A stretch of 64,000 nucleotides of DNA, taken from the NCBI GenBank assembly GCA_004210455.1, contig SEFA01000019.1, positions 1-64,000 on the forward strand. The letters are read 5' to 3'. The notes beneath the pieces were generated by a model that saw nothing but the letters and a program-made list of their open reading frames with translations, did no database searches and had not been told where the DNA came from. The translations under genes were made by a program, and so were the position numbers. Shown here in pieces: positions 4,682 through 37,159 of this stretch; position 1 is the first letter of the stretch; the number at the start of each line of letters is the position of its first letter. This DNA is from Rubrivivax sp. (GTDB lineage Bacteria > Pseudomonadota > Gammaproteobacteria > Burkholderiales > Burkholderiaceae_C).

Positions 4682-4936
4682 ATGCCGGTTGAGCGAGTGG
4701 TGGGCGAGGCGTACCTGCGCCGCACCGACGTGGAGGGTGTCGGGAGCATCCGGCTCGCCTCGAAGGTCTGTCCTGAAGGCAAGCTCATCGCCGAAGTGGT
4801 GTCGGTCGCCATGCCGGGCGGCGGTTTCGCCGCGGCGGGCAAAGCCTCGCTGACCGTGATGGTCGAGGACGTCGAGGACCGGTTCACGCGGAACCGGGTG
4901 CTGAGGCAGCTGGGCATCGACTGCGAGGACGACTGA
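4682..4936 (+). CDS. Small hypothetical protein
   Basis: 84 residues with a strong ribosome site (GGAGGAGGG, about six bases before the ATG at 4682). It is predicted to be mostly beta-strand with an acidic C-terminus (VEDVEDRF, then IDCEDD). No signal peptide and no family recognised. The frame is open upstream to 4655, but that ATG lacks a ribosome site. It is convergent with the histidine kinase gene and possibly paralogous to the preceding small gene. Confidence 0.55.
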   Translation: MPVERVVGEAYLRRTDVEGVGSIRLASKVCPEGKLIAEVVSVAMPGGGFAAAGKASLTVMVEDVEDRFTRNRVLRQLGIDCEDD

Positions 4937-4969
4937 GCCCGGCATGCGTCCCGCCCAGGGACTGCACGA

Positions 4970-6553
4970 TCAGGACGGCTCGGTGGAGCGTGCGGCAGAG
5001 GACAGCCATGCCAGCAACTCCGGCACCGCGATCGGTTTGGCCAGATGTCCGTCGAAGCCCGCGTCCGCGGCCCTCTGACGGTCCTCCGCCGAGCCATATC
5101 CGGTCAGCGCGACCATCAATGCCGGACGGTGCGCCCCTTGGGCAGACCGAGCGACGTCATAGCCGCTCAGCCCGGGCAGCCCGATGTCGCAGATGAGCAC
5201 ATCCGGACGTCTGGCACGCAGCACTTCCACCGCGGCGGGGCCGTTGTGCACCACCTGCACACGGTGACCATGGCCTTCGAGAATCATCCGAAGCGAGTCT
5301 GCAGCGTCCACGTTGTCCTCGGCCAACAGCACGTCGCGCGATCTCGAATCGGTGACAGGTGGGCTGTCGGGGTCCGTGGAGGCGCCGGTGGGCCCCTCCC
5401 GCAGGGCGGGCAAAGTCACAGTGAACGTGCTGCCTTGATCCGGCCCAGCCGAGACCATCGACACCTTGCCGCCATGCAGGGAGACCAGGCCTTTGACCAG
5501 CGCGAGACCCAGGCCCAGCCCGCCACGCGAGCGCTCCAGGGAGCGGTCGGCCTGCACGAAGGCGTCGAACAGCTGGTCTTGCAGGTGGGGCTCGATGCCA
5601 TCGCCCTCATCGTCCACGGTCAGCGCCACGCAGCCTTCCTCGCAGCTCAAGCTCACCGTCACACGATCTCCGGCTGCCGAGAACTTGATCGCGTTGTCCA
5701 CCAGGTTGTCTATCACCTGCCGAAGTCGCGTGGCATCGCCCTCGACCCAGGCGTCACAGTCACATCGGCAATCGAGGACGATGCCGGCGGCCTGCGCGGC
5801 GACCGCATGGGCCGTCAGCGTCTCGCGGGCCAGCTCGCACAGGTTCACAGGTTCGCGCGCCAGCTGGACCAACCCGCGCGTGAGGCGGGAGACGTCGAGC
5901 AACTGGTCGATGATGCGGCCCATGTGGCCCACCTGCCGATCCACCACGCGGGCGAGCGTGGACTGACGCTCAGGCGGCAATTCGTTCACCTGCAGCAGGT
6001 GGGCGGCATACCGGATGGGTGTCAGGGGATTCCGCAACTCGTGTGCCAGCATGGCCAGGAACTGATCCTTGCGTTCCGCCTGCTCGCGTTGCTGCCGCAA
6101 CAGGTCGCGCACCTCCCACTGACGCCGCCTGGCACGCAGCGCCGCCGAAACAGCCGACTGCAGCGCATCCGGCGCCATCGGCCGCTGCAACATGGCGACG
6201 TTGCCCAGTTCAGCCACCGCGCTGAGCGGGAGGTGCGCCGCGGAAGCGCTTGCCACGATGATGATGGGGAGGTCCGACCAGGCCGGCTGGGCGCGTATGC
6301 CCGCCACGAGATGTCGCCGCAACGACCGGGTCAGCATTTCCTCCGCGACCAGCACCGCGCCGGTCTCCAGGGACAACGCCTGCATCAGCGAGGCTTCGCT
6401 CTCGCAGGATTCGCTCTCGACGCCGGCATCGCTCAGCAACCGTCTGGTGAGCGACGCATCGCGGGGCGCCGCGAGGATCAGGACATCCGCGAACGAGGTC
6501 TCTGCCGCGGCAACAGGCGGCAGGGCCGCGGCCAACATCTGGACTTCGCTCAT
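4970..6553 (-). CDS. Hybrid sensor histidine kinase with degenerate N-terminal receiver and C-terminal receiver
   Basis: 527 residues, soluble. Order: receiver-like domain (about 22-140); coiled coil (145-165); dimerisation/phosphoacceptor helix with FLAMLAHELRNPLTPI (His171); ATPase domain with N-box VDNAIKF (285-291), G1 DDEGDGI and G2 RGGLGLGLALVKGL; C-terminal receiver LLAEDNVDAADS with Asp456 in LICDIGLP. In the N-terminal receiver the phospho-Asp is Glu (LVAEEML) and the KP motif is RP (MLQRPM), so it probably is not phosphorylated normally. Its ATG overlaps the stop of the KaiC-like gene by four bases, so the two are translationally coupled. Confidence 0.9.
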   Translation of the reverse strand: MSEVQMLAAALPPVAAAETSFADVLILAAPRDASLTRRLLSDAGVESESCESEASLMQALSLETGAVLVAEEMLTRSLRRHLVAGIRAQPAWSDLPIIIVASASAAHLPLSAVAELGNVAMLQRPMAPDALQSAVSAALRARRRQWEVRDLLRQQREQAERKDQFLAMLAHELRNPLTPIRYAAHLLQVNELPPERQSTLARVVDRQVGHMGRIIDQLLDVSRLTRGLVQLAREPVNLCELARETLTAHAVAAQAAGIVLDCRCDCDAWVEGDATRLRQVIDNLVDNAIKFSAAGDRVTVSLSCEEGCVALTVDDEGDGIEPHLQDQLFDAFVQADRSLERSRGGLGLGLALVKGLVSLHGGKVSMVSAGPDQGSTFTVTLPALREGPTGASTDPDSPPVTDSRSRDVLLAEDNVDAADSLRMILEGHGHRVQVVHNGPAAVEVLRARRPDVLICDIGLPGLSGYDVARSAQGAHRPALMVALTGYGSAEDRQRAADAGFDGHLAKPIAVPELLAWLSSAARSTEPS

Positions 6554-8058
6554 GTCGCACGCGTCTCATCGCCCTTGACGACGGGCATGCCCGACAGCAG
6601 GGCGTGGTAACCGCGCAGCGGCGCCTGCACGTCCAGGCCGGGCAGTCCGATGCGGAACTCCCGGATGGTGGAATCGTGTCCACCGACGCGCCGTTTGATC
6701 ACGGACAGCGCGCGCCGGATGGCACCGTCGTCCTCGAAATAGCGCAGCAGCATCGCCGCGTCCGTCAGGTAGGTGACGTCCAGAGGAGATCCACTGGGTT
6801 CCCCGACGAATCCTTGCTGGTTCAGCGTCAGCAGCGTGGCGACATCGCGATTGGAGAGGTAGCTCAGCAGTTCGTGCATGTGCATGGCGAGGTGTTTCTC
6901 GTCAGGCATCGCCGTCAGATATCCGTTCAGGGAGTCGATGACGACCATGGTGACGCCGTCCTCCTCGATCGCACGCCGGATGAGGTGGGCGAACTCCCCT
7001 GGCGAGAACTCCGCAGGATCGATCTGCCGCAGCGTGACTTGCCCGGACTCCACGTGCGCGCGCGTGGACATCCCCAGCGCGTCCGCGCGCGACAGGAAGA
7101 CGCGACGGGTTTCGTCGAACAGATAGACGGCGGCCCGACCTCCGTGCTCGGCGAGTGCATTGGCGAACTGCATGCACAGGGTGCTCTTGCCGATGCCCGA
7201 AGGCCCGGTGACCAGCAGGCTGCTGCCACGGTCCAGTCCGCCGAGCAGCATGTCATCCAGCACCGCGCTGCCGCTGGTCAGCGTTGCGCCTCGTCCCTCG
7301 ACGCCCACTGCGGTGTCATGTTCGTTGGCGACCAGACGCGGGTAGACGATCAGCCCGCCCGTCTGGATGGCGGTGTCGTGAAAGCCTTCTTGCATCGCCA
7401 CGCCGCGCATCTTGTGGACCCGCAGACGACGACGCTGCTTCCCATAGTCGGGGGCATGCTGGTACAGGCTGATGATGCCGTGCACCACGCCCTCCCCGGC
7501 TTCGTCGTTGTTGCCATGCAGCCCTGCCTCCTGGATGAGCAGCACCGTCGCTCCCATGGAGGAAAAGTGTTCGCGGAGCCGGAGCAGCTGACGCCGGAAC
7601 CGAAGCGGATCTCGGGCCAGCAGGCGCACGTCCGAGAACGGGTCGAAAACGACCCGGCTGGGGCGGAGCTCTTCCGTCACGCGGAAGATCCTTGCAACGA
7701 CGTCATTCAGTTCGACATCGCTGGGTGAGAAGAAGGAGTAGTCGCCCTCGGCCTCACCCGATCCGACCTCCGCCAGGTTCACGATATCCACGCCCGTCAG
7801 ATCCCATTGATGCGACCTGGCCGTGGCCATCAGTTGGGATTCGGTCTCCGCGAGCGTGCACCAGAGAACACGCTCACCGCAGCGCACGCCTTCCAGCAGG
7901 AACTGGAGACCCAGCGTTGTCTTTCCGGCGCCGGCCGACCCCTCGAGCAGGTAAAGATGCCCCGCTGGCAATCCGCCGCGCAGCACGTCGTCGAGACCCG
8001 GCGCGCCGGTGGAAACATACAGGCATGACGAGGGGGTGGGGTCGTTCGGTCGGGCCAT
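6550..8058 (-). CDS. KaiC-like double RecA-fold ATPase
   Basis: 502 residues from the ATG at 8058 (a longer start at 8193 would add non-conserved residues). Two KaiC domains: CI with Walker A GSAGAGKTT (40-48) and Walker B-like RVVFDPFSD, and CII with Walker A GPSGIGKST (285-293) and Walker B TMVVIDSLN. The catalytic Glu pairs are reduced to LAET and FDET. At the positions of the cyanobacterial CII phosphosites (Ser431/Thr432) it has Thr429/Tyr430. No KaiA or KaiB gene is nearby. It is followed by a histidine kinase with a four-base overlap, so a role in kinase signalling is the best inference. Confidence 0.88.
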   Translation of the reverse strand: MARPNDPTPSSCLYVSTGAPGLDDVLRGGLPAGHLYLLEGSAGAGKTTLGLQFLLEGVRCGERVLWCTLAETESQLMATARSHQWDLTGVDIVNLAEVGSGEAEGDYSFFSPSDVELNDVVARIFRVTEELRPSRVVFDPFSDVRLLARDPLRFRRQLLRLREHFSSMGATVLLIQEAGLHGNNDEAGEGVVHGIISLYQHAPDYGKQRRRLRVHKMRGVAMQEGFHDTAIQTGGLIVYPRLVANEHDTAVGVEGRGATLTSGSAVLDDMLLGGLDRGSSLLVTGPSGIGKSTLCMQFANALAEHGGRAAVYLFDETRRVFLSRADALGMSTRAHVESGQVTLRQIDPAEFSPGEFAHLIRRAIEEDGVTMVVIDSLNGYLTAMPDEKHLAMHMHELLSYLSNRDVATLLTLNQQGFVGEPSGSPLDVTYLTDAAMLLRYFEDDGAIRRALSVIKRRVGGHDSTIREFRIGLPGLDVQAPLRGYHALLSGMPVVKGDETRAT

Positions 8059-8230
8059 GGGATCGCATCGAAGTGATGCGCAAGCCGTGGCAAAACATGC
8101 ACCCAGCGGGAGGAAGGATTCGTCGAGCAGCGAAAAATCGGCGAAATCCGACGGGTGGCCGGGGTCGTGTCTGACACGAAGAGCGGCGTGCACGCAACCC
8201 GCCCCGTTGGGGTCGCCAAGCCTGATCCGC

Positions 8231-10204
8231 TCAGTTCAGTGCTTGCAGAAGCATGGGTAAATCGTAGGGTTTGGATATCACCGGAAATCCTTCGCCCGCT
8301 GCGACCTGTGCGACGTCGCTGTGCCCCGTCACAAGCACAGGCTTGATCTTGGGACGCAAGTAGCGAATTTCGCGTGCCAGCTGGACTCCGTTCATGCCCC
8401 GAGGCATGACGATGTCGCTTATCAAGATATCGGGGTCAAATCCGCTGCTCAGGTGTTGCAGAGCCTCCTCCCCGCTGTCCACCGCCTTCACGACAAATCC
8501 GCTGGACTCCAGCAGCTGCTGGGTGGCTTCCCGGACGTCGTGGTTGTCGTCGACCAGCAGGATGACCTTGCCGGCCGTGACGACCGTGTCCCCCTGCAGC
8601 GCGTCCTCCCGCGCAGCGTCTTCCACCTGCCGGGAGGGAATCATCAAGCAGATGGTCGTGCCCTGACCGGGGACGCTGTCCACGCGGATCGCGCCGCCCG
8701 AGGCTTCGATGAAGGCCGCCACCTGCGGCATGCCCAGCCCGCTGCCCTTGCCCTGCGGCTTCGTCGTGAAGAAGGGCTCGAAGATCCTGTCGATCACCTC
8801 GGCGCTCATGCCCTCGCCGTCGTCGCTCACGCGCAGGACGCAGATGGCGCCGAGCCGCGGGTCTTCCCCAGCCTCCGCCGACATCCGGATCACGCCGCCG
8901 GCCGGCATCGCATCTCTCGCGTTGGTCACCAGGTTGGTCAGCGCGATCTCCAGTTCCAGGCCATCCACGGCGACCCGCCCCAGAACCGGTTCGGCGCGCA
9001 GTTCCACCGTGTGCCTGGTGTCAAGCAGTTGCCGGACGTTATCGGCGATGCGTTCGAGTTCGATCCTCGTGTCCAGCGGGCGAGCCACGAGCGCCCGACG
9101 GGCCGACAGCAGGGAGAGCTGGCGCGTCAGCGCTTCCGCCTTGGTGATGCTGCGCTTGATCACGGCGATGTCGGCATCGACCGCGGCGCCGACACGGCGC
9201 TGGAGGATGCTCAAGCGGCCGGTTACCACCTGCAGGATGTTGTTGAGGTCGTGGGCGAGACCCGCGCCCATTTGACCGACCATCCTCAGCTTTTCCGCCT
9301 GGGCGAGCTTTTGCTCCGCGTGCTCCCGTTGATGGACGGCGGCTTGAAGTTCCTCCGTGCGTCGGAGCAGCTTCGTCACTGTGTCCGAGAGCCCGCGCTG
9401 GACGCGTCGGAAATGATGAGCCAGCAAAACCAGCACGACCGAACCCGCGATCAGGCCTTCGACGCGGACCGAGTACCACGCCAAGGTGTATCGCGAACCG
9501 CTGTAGGTGCTCAGCCATACGCCGCCCGCCTCTGCGGTGAGCACGACGACCAGCCAGATGAAGATGGAGCGGCGATGGAGTCCGCGTAGCCCGATGAGGA
9601 CGACGGCCAGGATCGCCAGGACCGCAGCGCTGTAGGAGCCGTAGATGCTGAACAGGCCGAAGGCCTGCCGCCCGTTCCGGTCGACGGTGGCGGCGGCATC
9701 GGTCCATTGGGACGCGAAGCCGGCCAGGACCGCCGCCGCCGTGGCGACCAGGGGCGGCCAGTAGGTGAAGGTCCGGGGCTCCTTGCTCGGTTGCATCGCG
9801 GACAGCGCCGCCCAGATGATGAAACTCGCGAACCCCGCACGCCAGGTGATGAACAGCCAGCTGACCGCGTGCGGTGAGCCGAGCAAGGGCCTGTCGGGAA
9901 GCACGGCCCCGGGAAAAGTCAGCACATGCAGCACCGCCATCAGTCCCGCGTAGAGGTAAGCGGCGGCGATGACCGAATGCGATCGAGGCTGGCTGGGCGA
10001 GGAGATGAGGAGCCAGAACGTGGCCAGGTTGATCATCGCCGCCGCCGCGCCATACATGCCGCTGATGTGGGGCAGCGGGACCAGCGGCTCCGAGGCGTAG
10101 GGAAGCACCGCGGCAATGCCCACCAGCAGCGCCACGGACAGCGTCAGCGCGGCACGGCGCTGCGCGGTGCTCGCGATCTCCTGAACGACCTCCCTGAACG
10201 GCAT
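8231..10204 (-). CDS. Membrane-bound hybrid sensor histidine kinase (MASE-type sensor)
   Basis: 657 residues. The N-terminal 265 hold about seven to eight hydrophobic segments with short loops, resembling a MASE4-type integral sensor. A coiled coil (270-305) follows, then the phosphoacceptor helix MGAGLAHDLNNILQVV (His318). Next come an ATPase domain with TNARDAMPAGG, SDDGEGM and GKGSGLGMPQVAAFI, and a receiver LLVDDNHDVREA with Asp597. The HDLNN type is found in NtrB-like and blue-light-type kinases. ATG 10204 gives a natural N-terminus; an upstream start at 10321 adds arginine-rich sequence. It precedes the KaiC-like gene on the same strand with a 172-base gap. Confidence 0.88.
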   Translation of the reverse strand: MPFREVVQEIASTAQRRAALTLSVALLVGIAAVLPYASEPLVPLPHISGMYGAAAAMINLATFWLLISSPSQPRSHSVIAAAYLYAGLMAVLHVLTFPGAVLPDRPLLGSPHAVSWLFITWRAGFASFIIWAALSAMQPSKEPRTFTYWPPLVATAAAVLAGFASQWTDAAATVDRNGRQAFGLFSIYGSYSAAVLAILAVVLIGLRGLHRRSIFIWLVVVLTAEAGGVWLSTYSGSRYTLAWYSVRVEGLIAGSVVLVLLAHHFRRVQRGLSDTVTKLLRRTEELQAAVHQREHAEQKLAQAEKLRMVGQMGAGLAHDLNNILQVVTGRLSILQRRVGAAVDADIAVIKRSITKAEALTRQLSLLSARRALVARPLDTRIELERIADNVRQLLDTRHTVELRAEPVLGRVAVDGLELEIALTNLVTNARDAMPAGGVIRMSAEAGEDPRLGAICVLRVSDDGEGMSAEVIDRIFEPFFTTKPQGKGSGLGMPQVAAFIEASGGAIRVDSVPGQGTTICLMIPSRQVEDAAREDALQGDTVVTAGKVILLVDDNHDVREATQQLLESSGFVVKAVDSGEEALQHLSSGFDPDILISDIVMPRGMNGVQLAREIRYLRPKIKPVLVTGHSDVAQVAAGEGFPVISKPYDLPMLLQALN

Positions 10205-10512
10205 CCCAGTGCTCCGGCCCTGTATTGACGGCGCGCGATTGTCTCTCGCGCGGCTCAACCCTTGGGCCGTCGACCCGTTTCGTGTCCGACCACTCAGCCA
10301 TTCACCCGGCAGGATGGGCACGCGCTGAAGTAGAAAGCCGCACGGGAGCGCCGCTCACGCCGATACGCGGCGGACGTACGACACTTCTGTAACTTTTCAA
10401 GGCGTCGTGATTGGACATAGGCCGGTCCACTCGCAGGTTTCGGATACTGCTTGCGACTCGCGCCTCCTGGAGTTGTCGCATGGTGTGACGGCTGGAGGCG
10501 CCAACCCCCGCC

Positions 10513-12408
10513 ATGCTTCTTCGAACCAACACCGCTCGTCGCCTGCACAGCGCCGCATTGAGCTGCCCGTCCCGTCACCGATCCGTCACGGTGGTCATCG
10601 CCACGGCTATCGCATTGACCGCGTGCGGTGGCGGATCGTCTGGTGAGGATCCCGAGCCGCCGGCAGGCCCCGGCACGACGGCCACAACCCTCGTGCGTGT
10701 TGCTGCAGAGCCTGCAGGAAGTCAGTGTGCGGCCGGCGGTACACGAGTCCAGTCCGGCCCGGATGCCGATGCCAACGGCCAACTCGCCGACTCGGAAGTG
10801 GTCAACACGCAGTACGTCTGCAACGGATTGAATGGCGGCGCCGGCGCCACCGGGCAGTCCATGCTCGTTCGAGTCCGTGTCGAGGCGGCTGGCGCGAACT
10901 GCGCACAGGGCGGATCGGCCGTCTTGGCGGGGCTGGACGCCAACGGGAACGGCGCGCTGGAGGATGGCGAAGCCGGAAGCATCGCTTACATGTGCAACGG
11001 GGCGAACGGCTCCAACGGCGCAACGGGGCCCACCGGTCCGAGCGGCCCCGCCGGTGCCTCGGGGCTGGACGCCTTGGTCGCGGTCGTCACCGAGTCGGCC
11101 GGCGCCAATTGCGCCTACGGCGGCCAGCGGGTCCAGTCGGGCCAGGATGCCAACCGCAATGGCGTGCTCGACGCGGGCGAGGTGTCCTCAACCTCCTACG
11201 TCTGCAGCGCAGCCCCGGCCGATACCCGTTGGGTCAACGTGACCGGAGCAGCGGTGCAGGCCGAATCGAACACCGGCTATCTGGCGAACTCGAACGCCGC
11301 CGTGGTGGTCACGTTGCCGGCATCGCCCGCCATCGGCGACTGGATCAAGATCACCGGGGTGGGCAGCGGCGGCTGGACGGTCGCGCAGAACGCCGGCCAG
11401 CGCATCTCCACCCTGGGCCTGCCAGGCGGCAACCTGATCGGCTGGACAGCCCAGGCGCCCGTCGGCTCATGGACTGGAACGGCCATGTCGGCCGACGGGG
11501 CGCGGCAGGTCGCGACCTCGGCGTCGGGCGAGCTCTACACCTCCAGCGACACGGGCGCGCAGTGGGCGCTGCGGCTCACGGGGCAGACCTGGTCTGGCGT
11601 GGCCACGTCGTCCGACGGGATGAAGATCCTGGCGGCGACCAACGGCGGCGCCCTTTACCTGTCCACGGACGGCGGCGCCAACTGGTCCAACGACGGCAGC
11701 GCGCGGGCCTGGTCCGCTGTCGCCAGTTCTGCCGACGGCGTGCGCCTTGTTGCGACGACCTACCTCGGTCAGATCTGGACCTCGTCCGACAGCGGCGCCA
11801 ACTGGACGGCGCGCGACAGCAACCGAGCCTGGCGCGCGGTCAGTTCATCCGCCGATGGCCGCGTGCTGGTGGCCGGCACCAATGGCGCGCAGCTGTACGT
11901 GTCGACGGATTACGGGGTGACCTGGACCGCCCGCGCCTCGGCGCAGTTCTGGTGGGCGACTGCGGCCTCCGCAGATGGCAAGAGGCTGTATGCAACGGTC
12001 GACACCGGCGCGATCTGGCGCTCCGATGATTTCGGTGCCACTTGGGAAGCGGTCGCCAGCACCCGAGATTGGCGCGGCATCGCTTCTTCCTCGGACGGGC
12101 GTTACGTTGTGGCCGCGACCAGTGGCGGGGCGCTCTACGAATCGCCGGACGGCGGCCAGACTTGGCGCGCCACGGCCGACGCCGGCGCCTGGACAGCCGT
12201 GGCCAGCAGTGCGAATGGCCTGACTCTATTGGCCGGCAAATCCGGCGCAGCGCTGTATGGGGGCGTACGTCGATCGTCGACCACCCCGGGCGTGACAGGG
12301 TCGCTGTCGGGTGGGCAGTCGGATGCGCTGCAGCTGCAATATGTCGGCGGCGGCGTGTTCATGCCGATCAGCTACGTATCGTCCAACGTGACGTTCGCAG
12401 CACGGTAG
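10513..12408 (+). CDS. Lipoprotein with three DUF7151-type repeats, collagen-like linker and Asp-box propeller
   Basis: 631 residues. The lipobox LTAC (Cys38) is followed by GGGSSGED, so the protein is probably exported and lipidated. Three repeats of about 45-65 residues carry GxxCxxGG, then a calcium-loop-like DANGNGALEDGE (DADANGQLADSE and DANRNGVLDAGE in the others), ending YVCNG; this matches DUF7151 repeats. A short Gly-x-Y run (NGATGPTGPSGPAGASG) joins repeats two and three. The C-terminal half has six Asp-box motifs (SSDTGAQW, STDGGANW, SSDSGANW, STDYGVTW, SDDFGATW, SPDGGQTW), about 39 residues apart, predicting a propeller. Function unknown; surface binding is plausible. Confidence 0.85.
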   Translation: MLLRTNTARRLHSAALSCPSRHRSVTVVIATAIALTACGGGSSGEDPEPPAGPGTTATTLVRVAAEPAGSQCAAGGTRVQSGPDADANGQLADSEVVNTQYVCNGLNGGAGATGQSMLVRVRVEAAGANCAQGGSAVLAGLDANGNGALEDGEAGSIAYMCNGANGSNGATGPTGPSGPAGASGLDALVAVVTESAGANCAYGGQRVQSGQDANRNGVLDAGEVSSTSYVCSAAPADTRWVNVTGAAVQAESNTGYLANSNAAVVVTLPASPAIGDWIKITGVGSGGWTVAQNAGQRISTLGLPGGNLIGWTAQAPVGSWTGTAMSADGARQVATSASGELYTSSDTGAQWALRLTGQTWSGVATSSDGMKILAATNGGALYLSTDGGANWSNDGSARAWSAVASSADGVRLVATTYLGQIWTSSDSGANWTARDSNRAWRAVSSSADGRVLVAGTNGAQLYVSTDYGVTWTARASAQFWWATAASADGKRLYATVDTGAIWRSDDFGATWEAVASTRDWRGIASSSDGRYVVAATSGGALYESPDGGQTWRATADAGAWTAVASSANGLTLLAGKSGAALYGGVRRSSTTPGVTGSLSGGQSDALQLQYVGGGVFMPISYVSSNVTFAAR

Positions 12409-13550: not shown

Positions 13551-13676
13551 ATGGAAGTACGAGAGAAGTATCGGCAGTTGAGTCCCGATGAGCGGGTGGC
13601 GATCGCGGGGTTGAAGATGCAGGGCTGCGGTGTGCGCGAGATCGAAAGAAGGCTGGGCCGGTCGGCCAGAAACTGA
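13551..13676 (+). pseudogene. Truncated IS30-family transposase, N-terminal fragment
   Basis: An ATG at 13551 opens a 41-codon frame containing YRQLSPDERVAIAGLKMQG and VREIERRLGRSA. This is the helix-turn-helix start of IS30-type transposases, which normally continues into a catalytic DDE domain. Here it ends at a TGA (13674-13676) directly after GRSARN. The catalytic domain is missing, so this is a remnant. A short inverted repeat (ACACCT at 13524-13529, AGGTGT at 13541-13546) precedes it. It marks a past rearrangement next to the OLD nuclease gene. Confidence 0.75.
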
Positions 13677-13722
13677 CCCCGTAACATCGCCATCCCAGCT
13701 TCACGAATTCGGTGAAGGTTCA

Positions 13723-15456
13723 ATGAGCCTCACACACAGAACCTCGGACAGGCCCTTGGGAAAACTGAACTACACACGGCACATCAGGAGACTTCGCTGC
13801 ATCTCGCTGCGAGGCCTTGTCGCGGAGAACGACTCAGCAGACCCACCTGTCTTTGACGCCTCTCGCGATCTGATACTCGGCCCCGTCAATCTCTTCGCCG
13901 GACCCAACGGCTCTGGCAAATCGACCGTCCTTGATGCTGTGCGCAGCCTGTTCGAGCCAGAGCTTCTCGCCAAGCTGAGGCGCGAGAACATCAAGCGCGA
14001 CGTCACGTCGGGTTTTCGCGTCGTGTTCGATAGTCAGTCTGAAGTCCGCGCTGTCTTCGGCCAGACAGGAGACGTGCTGGATCCGTCACGCCAGTCCGAC
14101 TGGTCGTGGCAGCGGACCCTGCTCCTAGTTGAAGTTGTGGACGTCGCTGGCGAACCGTGGTTCCGCGTCCCAGCCATAGGAAGTTTGCCGGTCGTGGGTG
14201 AGATCGAGCCGCACTGGCTGCAAGTTTTCAAGGATGCGCTGGCGCGGTTGGGCGCCCTCGGAAATGCATGGCCCCGCGGTGCGACCGCTGTCCCAGACCC
14301 GGGCAGCTACGTTGAAATCCTTCGCCGCTTCAGTCACCTTCTGCCGCGCAATGCGTCAAGTGGGCCGACCGAGGACTGGATGAAGGATCGTTCCGGGAAG
14401 CTGTCAAAGATCAACGGACGGCTGCATCAGTACCATGGAGATGACCTCACCCAGTCGAGCGCGGTCGATCTGGGATTGATTCCCTCGGGCTGGCATCAGG
14501 TCGTCGATCTGCTCAGCTGGGTGGAGCAATGCGAGGACCATTCAATCTGCACCATCGATGAGCCGGAGCGCCACCTCCACCCCGTGCTTCAGCGCGCGCT
14601 GATCTCTGAGCTGGCCGCACTTCGCCGGCGCAAGAATCTGCAGTTCATCATCGCCACACATTCGCCCACGTTCTTGAACCGGTCGGCCTGGAACCAGACC
14701 GAGCTGGCCATCTTCCACATGATCGGCGGGCGGCCGGTGTTAGAGCCCCGCGTGGAACGAGTGCTCGATCAGCTCGGCTGCCTTGCCAGCGACCTGTGTC
14801 AATCCAACGGCGTGATCTGGGTGGAGGGGCCGTCCGATCGGATCTACCTCAACGCGTTCCTGCGCGCCTGGCGCTCCCAACGGCTCAAATCCAGTGCCGT
14901 GCTGACGGAAAACGTCCACTATTCGTTCTCGTTCTACCAAGGCAGCTGCCTCTCCCACTATTCGGGGACGGCCTGGGGATCGTCGCTTGACGACACGGAT
15001 GGTCCCGACGACGATTCCTCGGTGTCGTCTGCAGAAGAGCAAGAGGACGTTCGAGAGCTCATTGACCTGCTCGCCTTGAACCGCAATGCCGCCATCTGCA
15101 TGGACCAGGACTGCGACTTCACAGTTGATTGCTTCGGCGATCTCGTGCCAGCGACCAAACTGGGTCATAACAAGATGCGAGTCATCGACGAGCTGCGTGG
15201 CGCGGCCAACCCGGTGGTTCACATCACGAGCGGATACACGATCGAAGCCTACGTGAGTCAGCTCATGCCCAAGAAGTTCCTGTCCTACGTCAATGGGCGA
15301 GCGGTGGTCGGCGGAAACAAGGTACAGCAGGCCATTCGCTTCGCGAAGAAGAGCGACGCGGAGATCGCGAGCTGCTTCGCCCAACACTTCGCGCTGGAGT
15401 TGTTCATCAAACGTCTGCACGAGGCCATCGTCCGATGGAATCTGTCGGCTGCCTGA
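13723..15456 (+). CDS. OLD-family ATPase with Toprim nuclease domain
   Basis: 577 residues from the ATG at 13723. ABC/SMC-like ATPase: Walker A GPNGSGKST (60-68), Walker B ICTIDEPE (275-282), H-loop ATHSP (311-315). The Toprim domain follows: Glu in WVEGPSD (367-372), and the Asp-x-Asp pair in CMDQDCDF (461 and 463), which bind the catalytic metals. This is the layout of OLD (overcoming lysogenisation defect) nucleases, many of which act in phage defence. It stands alone, with no helicase partner typical of Gabija-like pairs, immediately after an IS30 remnant. A defence role is inferred from family and context. Convergent with glmS. Confidence 0.85.
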   Translation: MSLTHRTSDRPLGKLNYTRHIRRLRCISLRGLVAENDSADPPVFDASRDLILGPVNLFAGPNGSGKSTVLDAVRSLFEPELLAKLRRENIKRDVTSGFRVVFDSQSEVRAVFGQTGDVLDPSRQSDWSWQRTLLLVEVVDVAGEPWFRVPAIGSLPVVGEIEPHWLQVFKDALARLGALGNAWPRGATAVPDPGSYVEILRRFSHLLPRNASSGPTEDWMKDRSGKLSKINGRLHQYHGDDLTQSSAVDLGLIPSGWHQVVDLLSWVEQCEDHSICTIDEPERHLHPVLQRALISELAALRRRKNLQFIIATHSPTFLNRSAWNQTELAIFHMIGGRPVLEPRVERVLDQLGCLASDLCQSNGVIWVEGPSDRIYLNAFLRAWRSQRLKSSAVLTENVHYSFSFYQGSCLSHYSGTAWGSSLDDTDGPDDDSSVSSAEEQEDVRELIDLLALNRNAAICMDQDCDFTVDCFGDLVPATKLGHNKMRVIDELRGAANPVVHITSGYTIEAYVSQLMPKKFLSYVNGRAVVGGNKVQQAIRFAKKSDAEIASCFAQHFALELFIKRLHEAIVRWNLSAA

Positions 15457-36935: not shown

Positions 36936-36943
36936 CCGGCCCT

Positions 36944-37034
36944 GTTCCGAGGAGCGTTGCGACCTCCCATCCCATGGAGGCCAGGCTCGGAACCGCCGCG
37001 CGGCGACACGCCCGCGGCAATGGCAACCGCGCTC
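36944..37034 (+). ncRNA. S-adenosylhomocysteine (SAH) riboswitch
   Basis: Matches the SAH aptamer: P1 helix GTTCCGAG (36944-36951) with CTCGGAAC (36986-36993); conserved GAGGAGCGTTGCGAC on the 5' side; P2 CCTCC (36963-36967) with GGAGG (36976-36980); CCAGGCTCGG; then the 3' pseudoknot strand GCAACCGCGCTCACC, whose CGCTC (37030-37034) pairs with GAGCG (36952-36956). SAH binding turns on ahcY, which removes SAH. It lies 125 bases before the ahcY start, the standard place in betaproteobacteria. Confidence 0.92.
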
Positions 37035-37159
37035 ACCCGTCGACCCTTCGCAGGCCGGGTGAGGACTGAGCGGCAAACCGGCCCACCGGCAAGCGCCCTC
37101 CGCACTTCTCCCCATGCCCTGATCGCTGGCGTCGACGGCCCTTCCTCGCAGGAGTCCGC

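Follow-up and report, generated by a model that had tools for sequence, protein, structure and literature searches.

A KaiC-like ATPase gene paired with a gene for a kinase carrying a predicted pseudo-receiver domain in Rubrivivax sp. and other Pseudomonadota

Genes at the locus

We analyzed a stretch of 64,000 nucleotides of the Rubrivivax sp. genome (contig SEFA01000019.1, positions 1 to 64,000; hereafter the window), in which a gene for a KaiC-like two-domain ATPase lies between genes for two hybrid histidine kinases. An earlier note on this DNA had described the three genes as following one another on the minus strand in the order membrane hybrid kinase, KaiC-like gene and soluble hybrid kinase, with a four-base overlap of the last two. 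This layout is confirmed, the overlap being the ATGA at 6553-6550. The features of the locus are as follows.

8231-10321 (GTG start, 696 aa) or 8231-10204 (ATG start, 657 aa), minus strand: membrane hybrid kinase P0003 with MASE4, HATPase_c and Response_reg domains (Pfam), judged to lie outside the functional unit
6550-8193 (GTG start, 547 aa) or 6550-8058 (ATG start, 502 aa), minus strand: KaiC-like two-domain ATPase P0001, matched twice by PF06745 (214 bits) and 44-90% identical to relatives with a like gene order
7702..7725 (approximate), minus strand: stretch of the CI domain, residues 112-119, matching the B-loop of Synechococcus elongatus KaiC by alignment and conservation counts
6766..6774 (approximate), minus strand: CII phospho-pair T429-Y430, equivalent to S431/T432 of S. 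elongatus KaiC by alignment with chain 1u9i
4970-6553, minus strand: soluble hybrid histidine kinase P0002, 527 aa, of the architecture RtaNt-HisKA-HATPase_c-Response_reg (REC)
6104..6496 (residues 20-150 of P0002), minus strand: RtaNt, a predicted pseudo-receiver domain (profile score 134.5 bits, alignment, receiver-fold model), with Glu71 at the phospho-Asp position and the invariant QPxWSD..P..RP

The KaiC-like gene probably starts at the ATG at 8058, the point from which the 90% identical relative at locus L009 aligns; this ATG is separated from the stop codon of the membrane kinase gene by 172 bases. A scan of positions 4700-10600 detected no promoter-like sites and five terminator-like sites, with 2.1 expected (standard deviation 1.6). 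The genome to which the window belongs (G000; 189 contigs, 6.3 Mb) contains no match to KaiB (PF07689) or to KaiA at E <= 0.001. A second kaiC-RtaNt-hybrid kinase pair is present in the same genome at the start of contig C15 (L048:16-3170), its KaiC being 44% identical.

Conservation of the kaiC-kinase pair

KaiC matches at E <= 1e-60 were found in 34 of 250 family, 9 of 369 class and 38 of 398 phylum genomes, indicating that the system is patchy yet broad. The three samples overlap; joined with relatives from a protein search they gave 86 distinct kaiC loci, all of which were examined. In 79 of them an RtaNt region of about 130 residues starts no more than some 60 bases from the end of kaiC (67 of 73 loci in a first set, 11 of 12 in a second, and the single remaining locus; 18 of the 79 lie outside the set from which the RtaNt profile was built). 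The start of the kinase gene, when chosen mechanically, fell exactly at -4 relative to kaiC in 29 of 67 cases. The coupling of a KaiC-like gene to a kinase without KaiA and KaiB, as proposed earlier, is therefore real and widely conserved, and the functional unit is most likely, as judged from gene order, the pair formed by the kaiC-like and RtaNt-kinase genes, which is widespread in Pseudomonadota.

The membrane kinase gene does not share this conservation. Its membrane half was searched for at 74 kaiC loci, 73 of them distinct. Only the window has it next to kaiC; the 72 other distinct loci lack it there, and these include L009 with its 90% identical KaiC. Two loci match P0003 from residue 269 onward, within their own RtaNt kinases. 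Nine relatives were obtained by the protein search; L016 and L017, with matches of 47-86 residues, were left out before counting. In the seven remaining (L009-L015, 47-90% KaiC identity) the soluble kinase always follows kaiC, and nothing matching the membrane kinase was found upstream. L086, a copy of L010, was removed separately. Full-length homologues of P0003 among 120 family genomes are limited to one in G052, one in G116 and two in the window's genome, and for the three copies that lie elsewhere than in the window no kaiC match occurs within the 7.7-11 kb examined.

These data bear on a reading in which all three genes form one module, with the membrane kinase sensing an outside cue and passing it through the KaiC-like protein to the soluble kinase. 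The shared strand and the adjacency of the genes in the window speak for it. However, a membrane half that adjoins kaiC in 1 of 73 distinct loci, and homologues elsewhere with no kaiC nearby, make such a module very improbable, and we rejected it; the membrane kinase looks like an unrelated chance neighbour. The idea of a KaiC-like gene flanked by two kinases as a unit thus has to be narrowed to the downstream soluble kinase: a conserved three-gene order, which the earlier note had proposed to look for, is not found, while the kaiC-soluble kinase order is. Divergent from the membrane kinase gene, at 10513-12408 (plus strand), lies a gene whose product contains BNR/sortilin-like repeats in addition to three DUF7151 stretches.

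The seven kaiC loci without RtaNt encode more distant KaiC proteins (33-38% identity); L142, at 38%, does carry RtaNt. The six that were placed in the KaiC tree form one clade with 100% support in the SH-aLRT (Shimodaira-Hasegawa-like approximate likelihood ratio test); the seventh comes from G609. At these six sister-group loci (L143, L144, L146, L147, L148 and L149) KaiC carries a Ser-Tyr (SY) phospho-pair and kaiC is followed by a gene for a GGDEF-EAL protein (Pfam), immediately at five of them and as the second gene at L149. The first approximately 140 residues of this protein have no Pfam match and appear receiver-like by eye. Comparison of the region with the RtaNt profile gave weak results (probability 5% and 23%) covering half of the domain.

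The RtaNt domain and its KaiC partner

Pfam did not recognize the RtaNt region in any of 21 kinases at a threshold of 1e-3, or 1e-5 for ten of them. Across 50 aligned RtaNt rows the residues D, Q, W, S, P, R, P, R and Q are invariant. An AlphaFold2 model built from eight sequences (predicted local distance difference score 81.7, predicted template modelling score 0.76) has five alternating strands and helices. Its best Foldseek match is the DctD receiver (E 4.3e-6); there were 182 matches at E <= 0.001, and the best 50 of the 182 mostly bear the names of receivers or response regulators. Superposition of the model on StyR with VIA-align gave Z 16.1 and a root mean square deviation of 2.2 over 120 residues. 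With columns assigned by eye, the phospho-Asp position is occupied by Glu in 41 of the 50 rows, by Asp in four and by other residues in five; the Lys column is Arg in all 50, and strand 1 has no acidic pair. Changes of Asp to Glu, Thr to Ala and Lys to Arg are described as typical of pseudo-receivers (PMC12632262). RtaNt is thus predicted, from the model and the alignment, to be a receiver fold that has lost its phosphotransfer residues, i.e. a pseudo-receiver. We also considered a KaiB- or SasA-like domain and hold it to be less likely: neither P0002 nor any other protein of the window's genome matches KaiB (PF07689), and the model is that of a receiver. KaiB and SasA are not among the structure matches listed for the model, which does not by itself exclude such a likeness.

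The RtaNt profile was run against the 398 phylum genomes, with up to ten candidates scored in each. Forty matches reached E <= 1e-30; the next stood at 7e-20, and the rest were no better than 3e-11 and look like ordinary receivers. Thirty-nine of the 40 strong matches adjoin a kaiC match, and 39 of the 41 kaiC matches in these genomes have RtaNt. Over the 398 genomes RtaNt and this kaiC subfamily are therefore linked almost one-to-one. The fortieth strong match belongs to an RtaNt kinase at L173:3953-5350 (minus strand; contig G972:C11), which adjoins DnaK- and DnaJ-like reading frames; its genome has a kaiC-RtaNt pair elsewhere.

Among the 57 host genomes eight contain kaiB, either at a distance of at least about 300 kb from the pair or on a different contig. 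All eight kaiB loci have a kaiC (26-29% identity), and none has RtaNt in the stretches examined, which for L182 amounted to 5.5 kb.

Comparison with these KaiB-linked proteins also sets the KaiC subfamily apart. Walker A Lys is present in both RecA/KaiC domains of all 67 members (K46 and K291 in the window). At the first CI catalytic position Ser occurs in 55, Ala in 11, Gly in one and Glu in none, and at the second Glu in 66 and Gln in one; the pair in the window is A70-E71, unlike the Glu-Glu of canonical clock KaiC, which is found in 8/8 KaiB-linked proteins. The CII pair is DE in 58 members, including that of the window, and EE in nine. The phospho-pair is SY in 41, TY in 23 (the window among them), SF in two and TH in one, whereas KaiB-linked KaiC has Ser at the first position in all eight and Ser (six), Ala (one) or Thr (one) at the second. 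Both NCBIfam models of clock KaiC scored far below their cut-offs (PRK09302, 219.8 of 408 bits; TIGR02655, 142.6 of 546.25 bits). Seventy-six positions are kept in at least 85% of the subfamily and in at most one of the eight KaiB-linked proteins. They cluster at residues 140-157 of the window's KaiC (11 of 18); since the stretch comes directly after Walker B, ATPase function would explain the clustering just as well as docking of a partner.

A phosphorylatable pair, Ser or Thr followed by Tyr, is kept in 64 of the 67 members. This is what would be expected of an hourglass-type timer, as proposed by De Luca et al. 2011 (PMC3164672), in which KaiC would be slowly phosphorylated on the T/S-Y pair and the kinase would read elapsed time. 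However, the first catalytic Glu of CI has been replaced by Ser, Ala or Gly in every member of the subfamily while the KaiB-linked proteins retain it, and the window's genome has no KaiA or KaiB match. We consider such a timer improbable. The suggestion in the earlier note of a non-circadian module that senses ATP or energy is neither favoured nor disfavoured by these data.

Twenty-one kinases were analyzed with Pfam. Five are RtaNt-HisKA-REC, seven have one PAS region and REC, seven are of the HWE class, one is PAS-GAF-HisKA-REC and one is multi-PAS-HisKA. In L145:4979-9451 (plus strand) at least six PAS stretches come after RtaNt, then HisKA and HATPase_c, and the frame continues past the end of the locus. 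On a KaiC tree labelled with these 21 kinases (the window's and 20 others) and, by length alone, with the other 46, the three kinase architectures need at least ten changes. The distinction between HWE and HisKA needs at least four, three of which are forced by starred branches; RtaNt persists across these changes. The tree is a quick one and has five long end branches.

Distance correlations were calculated for the 59 loci with HisKA kinases, leaving out the seven HWE loci, L145 and the duplicate L086. KaiC-RtaNt (0.71) and kinase core-REC (0.74) gave higher values than KaiC-kinase core (0.51) and RtaNt-kinase core (0.49). The difference between KaiC-RtaNt and KaiC-kinase core was 0.12-0.26 over 500 resamplings of loci, and the partial correlation was 0.61 for KaiC-RtaNt given the kinase core and 0.27 for KaiC-kinase core given RtaNt. 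RtaNt therefore goes with KaiC more closely than with its own kinase.

Proposed control of the kinase and relation to known systems

We propose that KaiC controls the soluble kinase through its N-terminal pseudo-receiver RtaNt, and consider this reading, suggested by comparative sequence data, somewhat likelier to be right than wrong. It is favoured because RtaNt follows kaiC at nearly all loci and strong RtaNt matches adjoin kaiC; because the KaiC-RtaNt correlation exceeds those with the kinase core, and the kinase type changes while RtaNt stays; and because RtaNt is absent from the KaiB-linked loci, has a receiver-fold model and belongs to a pair reported to be cotranscribed in Ramlibacter. 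The KaiC-like ATPase would, by homology, assemble as a ring. Its nucleotide or phosphorylation state may reach RtaNt by direct contact, RtaNt would set the autophosphorylation of the kinase, and phosphate would then pass to the kinase's own C-terminal receiver and on to further partners. The B-loop has been defined as KaiC residues 116-123 (PMC12084410). Our guess is that RtaNt docks on the CI face used by KaiB and SasA. A broader, tentative view is that of KaiB-free KaiC signalling, in which a KaiC ring with a Ser/Thr-Tyr phosphosite would be read by a degenerate receiver acting as an exchangeable adaptor on the KaiB/SasA face. Outputs (HisKA, PAS-HisKA and HWE kinases and, in the sister group, cyclic di-GMP enzymes) would be swapped and the KaiC-adaptor contact kept.

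Several observations weigh against the proposed control. The strong RtaNt kinase at L173 and the weak match at L174 (7e-20) have no kaiC match in the surrounding 10 kb. Column-wise mutual information between KaiC and RtaNt does not point clearly to the B-loop as the contact: about 9% of windows score higher than that of the B-loop, and the strongest covarying single pairs are scattered across both KaiC domains. Both the B-loop and the start of RtaNt have motifs that, in the clade of the window, differ from the family consensus. No KaiC-RtaNt gene fusion was seen among the loci examined, and the phospho-site Asp is retained in the four RtaNt rows mentioned above. The L173 kinase would suit a different explanation, namely that KaiC and the kinase are merely co-regulated neighbours in a stress regulon, do not touch, and that RtaNt binds another partner or a ligand; the pseudo-receivers of CikA and KaiA bind quinones (PMC12632262). 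However, mere co-regulation accords poorly with the nearly one-to-one occurrence of RtaNt beside kaiC genes of this subfamily, and with a KaiC-RtaNt correlation stronger than that of RtaNt with the kinase, so we hold this explanation to be unlikely.

The control of the kinase by KaiC through RtaNt would concern a gene pair that is not new. De Luca et al. 2011 (PMC3164672) described a second ('dark-blue') kaiC context, in which kaiC with SY, TY or SF is followed by an RtaNt kinase without kaiB, reported from reverse transcription PCR (RT-PCR) that the pair Rta_04330/Rta_04340 is cotranscribed in Ramlibacter tataouinensis, and suggested a KaiC-interacting kinase family in addition to the hourglass timer. 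Their RT-PCR primers map to L106, the reverse exactly and the forward with two mismatches, giving a 2,541-bp product compared with the reported 2.5 kb; an exact search of 399 family genomes with the forward primer found nothing. Against one RtaNt profile the L106 kinase scores 144.4 bits and that of the window 134.5 bits. Since the primers lie on L106 at the reported spacing and L106 carries RtaNt, the pair is already that of De Luca et al. The window agrees with their context in having kaiC directly followed by an RtaNt kinase (equated through the primer-matched L106), a TY pair and a genome without kaiB. It differs in the foreign membrane kinase upstream. Moreover, the paper saw in RtaNt a weak likeness to SasA/KaiB and also to a receiver, whereas the present model is a receiver fold, and it states that such genomes have no kaiB elsewhere, whereas 8 of 57 have a separate kaiB locus here. 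No later account of RtaNt was found among the open-licence papers listed in literature searches. The present analysis adds the predicted receiver fold with a mostly Glu phospho-site, the lack of a Pfam match to the domain, its joining to several classes of kinase, its almost one-to-one linkage with kaiC, its correlated divergence with KaiC and its absence from the eight KaiB-linked loci.

Cyanobacterial KaiC-SasA likewise combines a KaiC protein with a kinase bearing a dedicated domain at its N terminus. However, the SasA input has a KaiB-like thioredoxin fold (PMC6769508), unlike the receiver fold modelled for RtaNt, and in the present system KaiA and KaiB are missing and the catalytic and phospho-residues of KaiC differ. 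CikA and KaiA also bring degenerate receivers into Kai systems (PMC12632262); the CikA pseudo-receiver binds KaiB, whereas RtaNt is the N-terminal input of a kinase whose gene adjoins kaiC. In archaeal KaiC-like hubs (Makarova et al. 2017, cited in PMC5847659) KaiC-family ATPases are tied to two-component parts, including KaiC-REC fusions, while the system described here is bacterial, with a two-domain KaiC, separate genes and a single dedicated pseudo-receiver. BcsE resembles it by description, having a RecA/KaiC-like fold beside a degenerate REC and an output domain (a degenerate GGDEF) in one chain, but its RecA-like domain is described as inactive (PMC7439463).

Two other features of the window may be recorded. 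A gene at 13630-15456 (plus strand) encodes an AAA ATPase (AAA_21/AAA_15 type) that is matched in part by the defence ATPases AriA, PtuA and GajA. Of all 4-kb blocks of the window, the one holding this gene has the lowest GC content (0.600); the gene is possibly a defence gene of foreign origin. In a search of the defence library KaiC and the kinases gave weak partial matches. An S-adenosylhomocysteine (SAH) riboswitch is located at 36943-37041 (plus strand, 56.3 bits).

KaiC homologues without KaiA and KaiB occur in many non-photosynthetic bacteria, with an output that is not yet settled. Schmelling et al. 2017 judged it very unlikely that KaiC stimulates SasA homologues outside cyanobacteria, given the lack of the KaiB-like domain (PMC5520375). 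A dedicated pseudo-receiver would offer a specific output route to the one KaiC subfamily with which it is linked almost one-to-one, and narrows the candidates for that route to a particular kinase and 130 of its residues.

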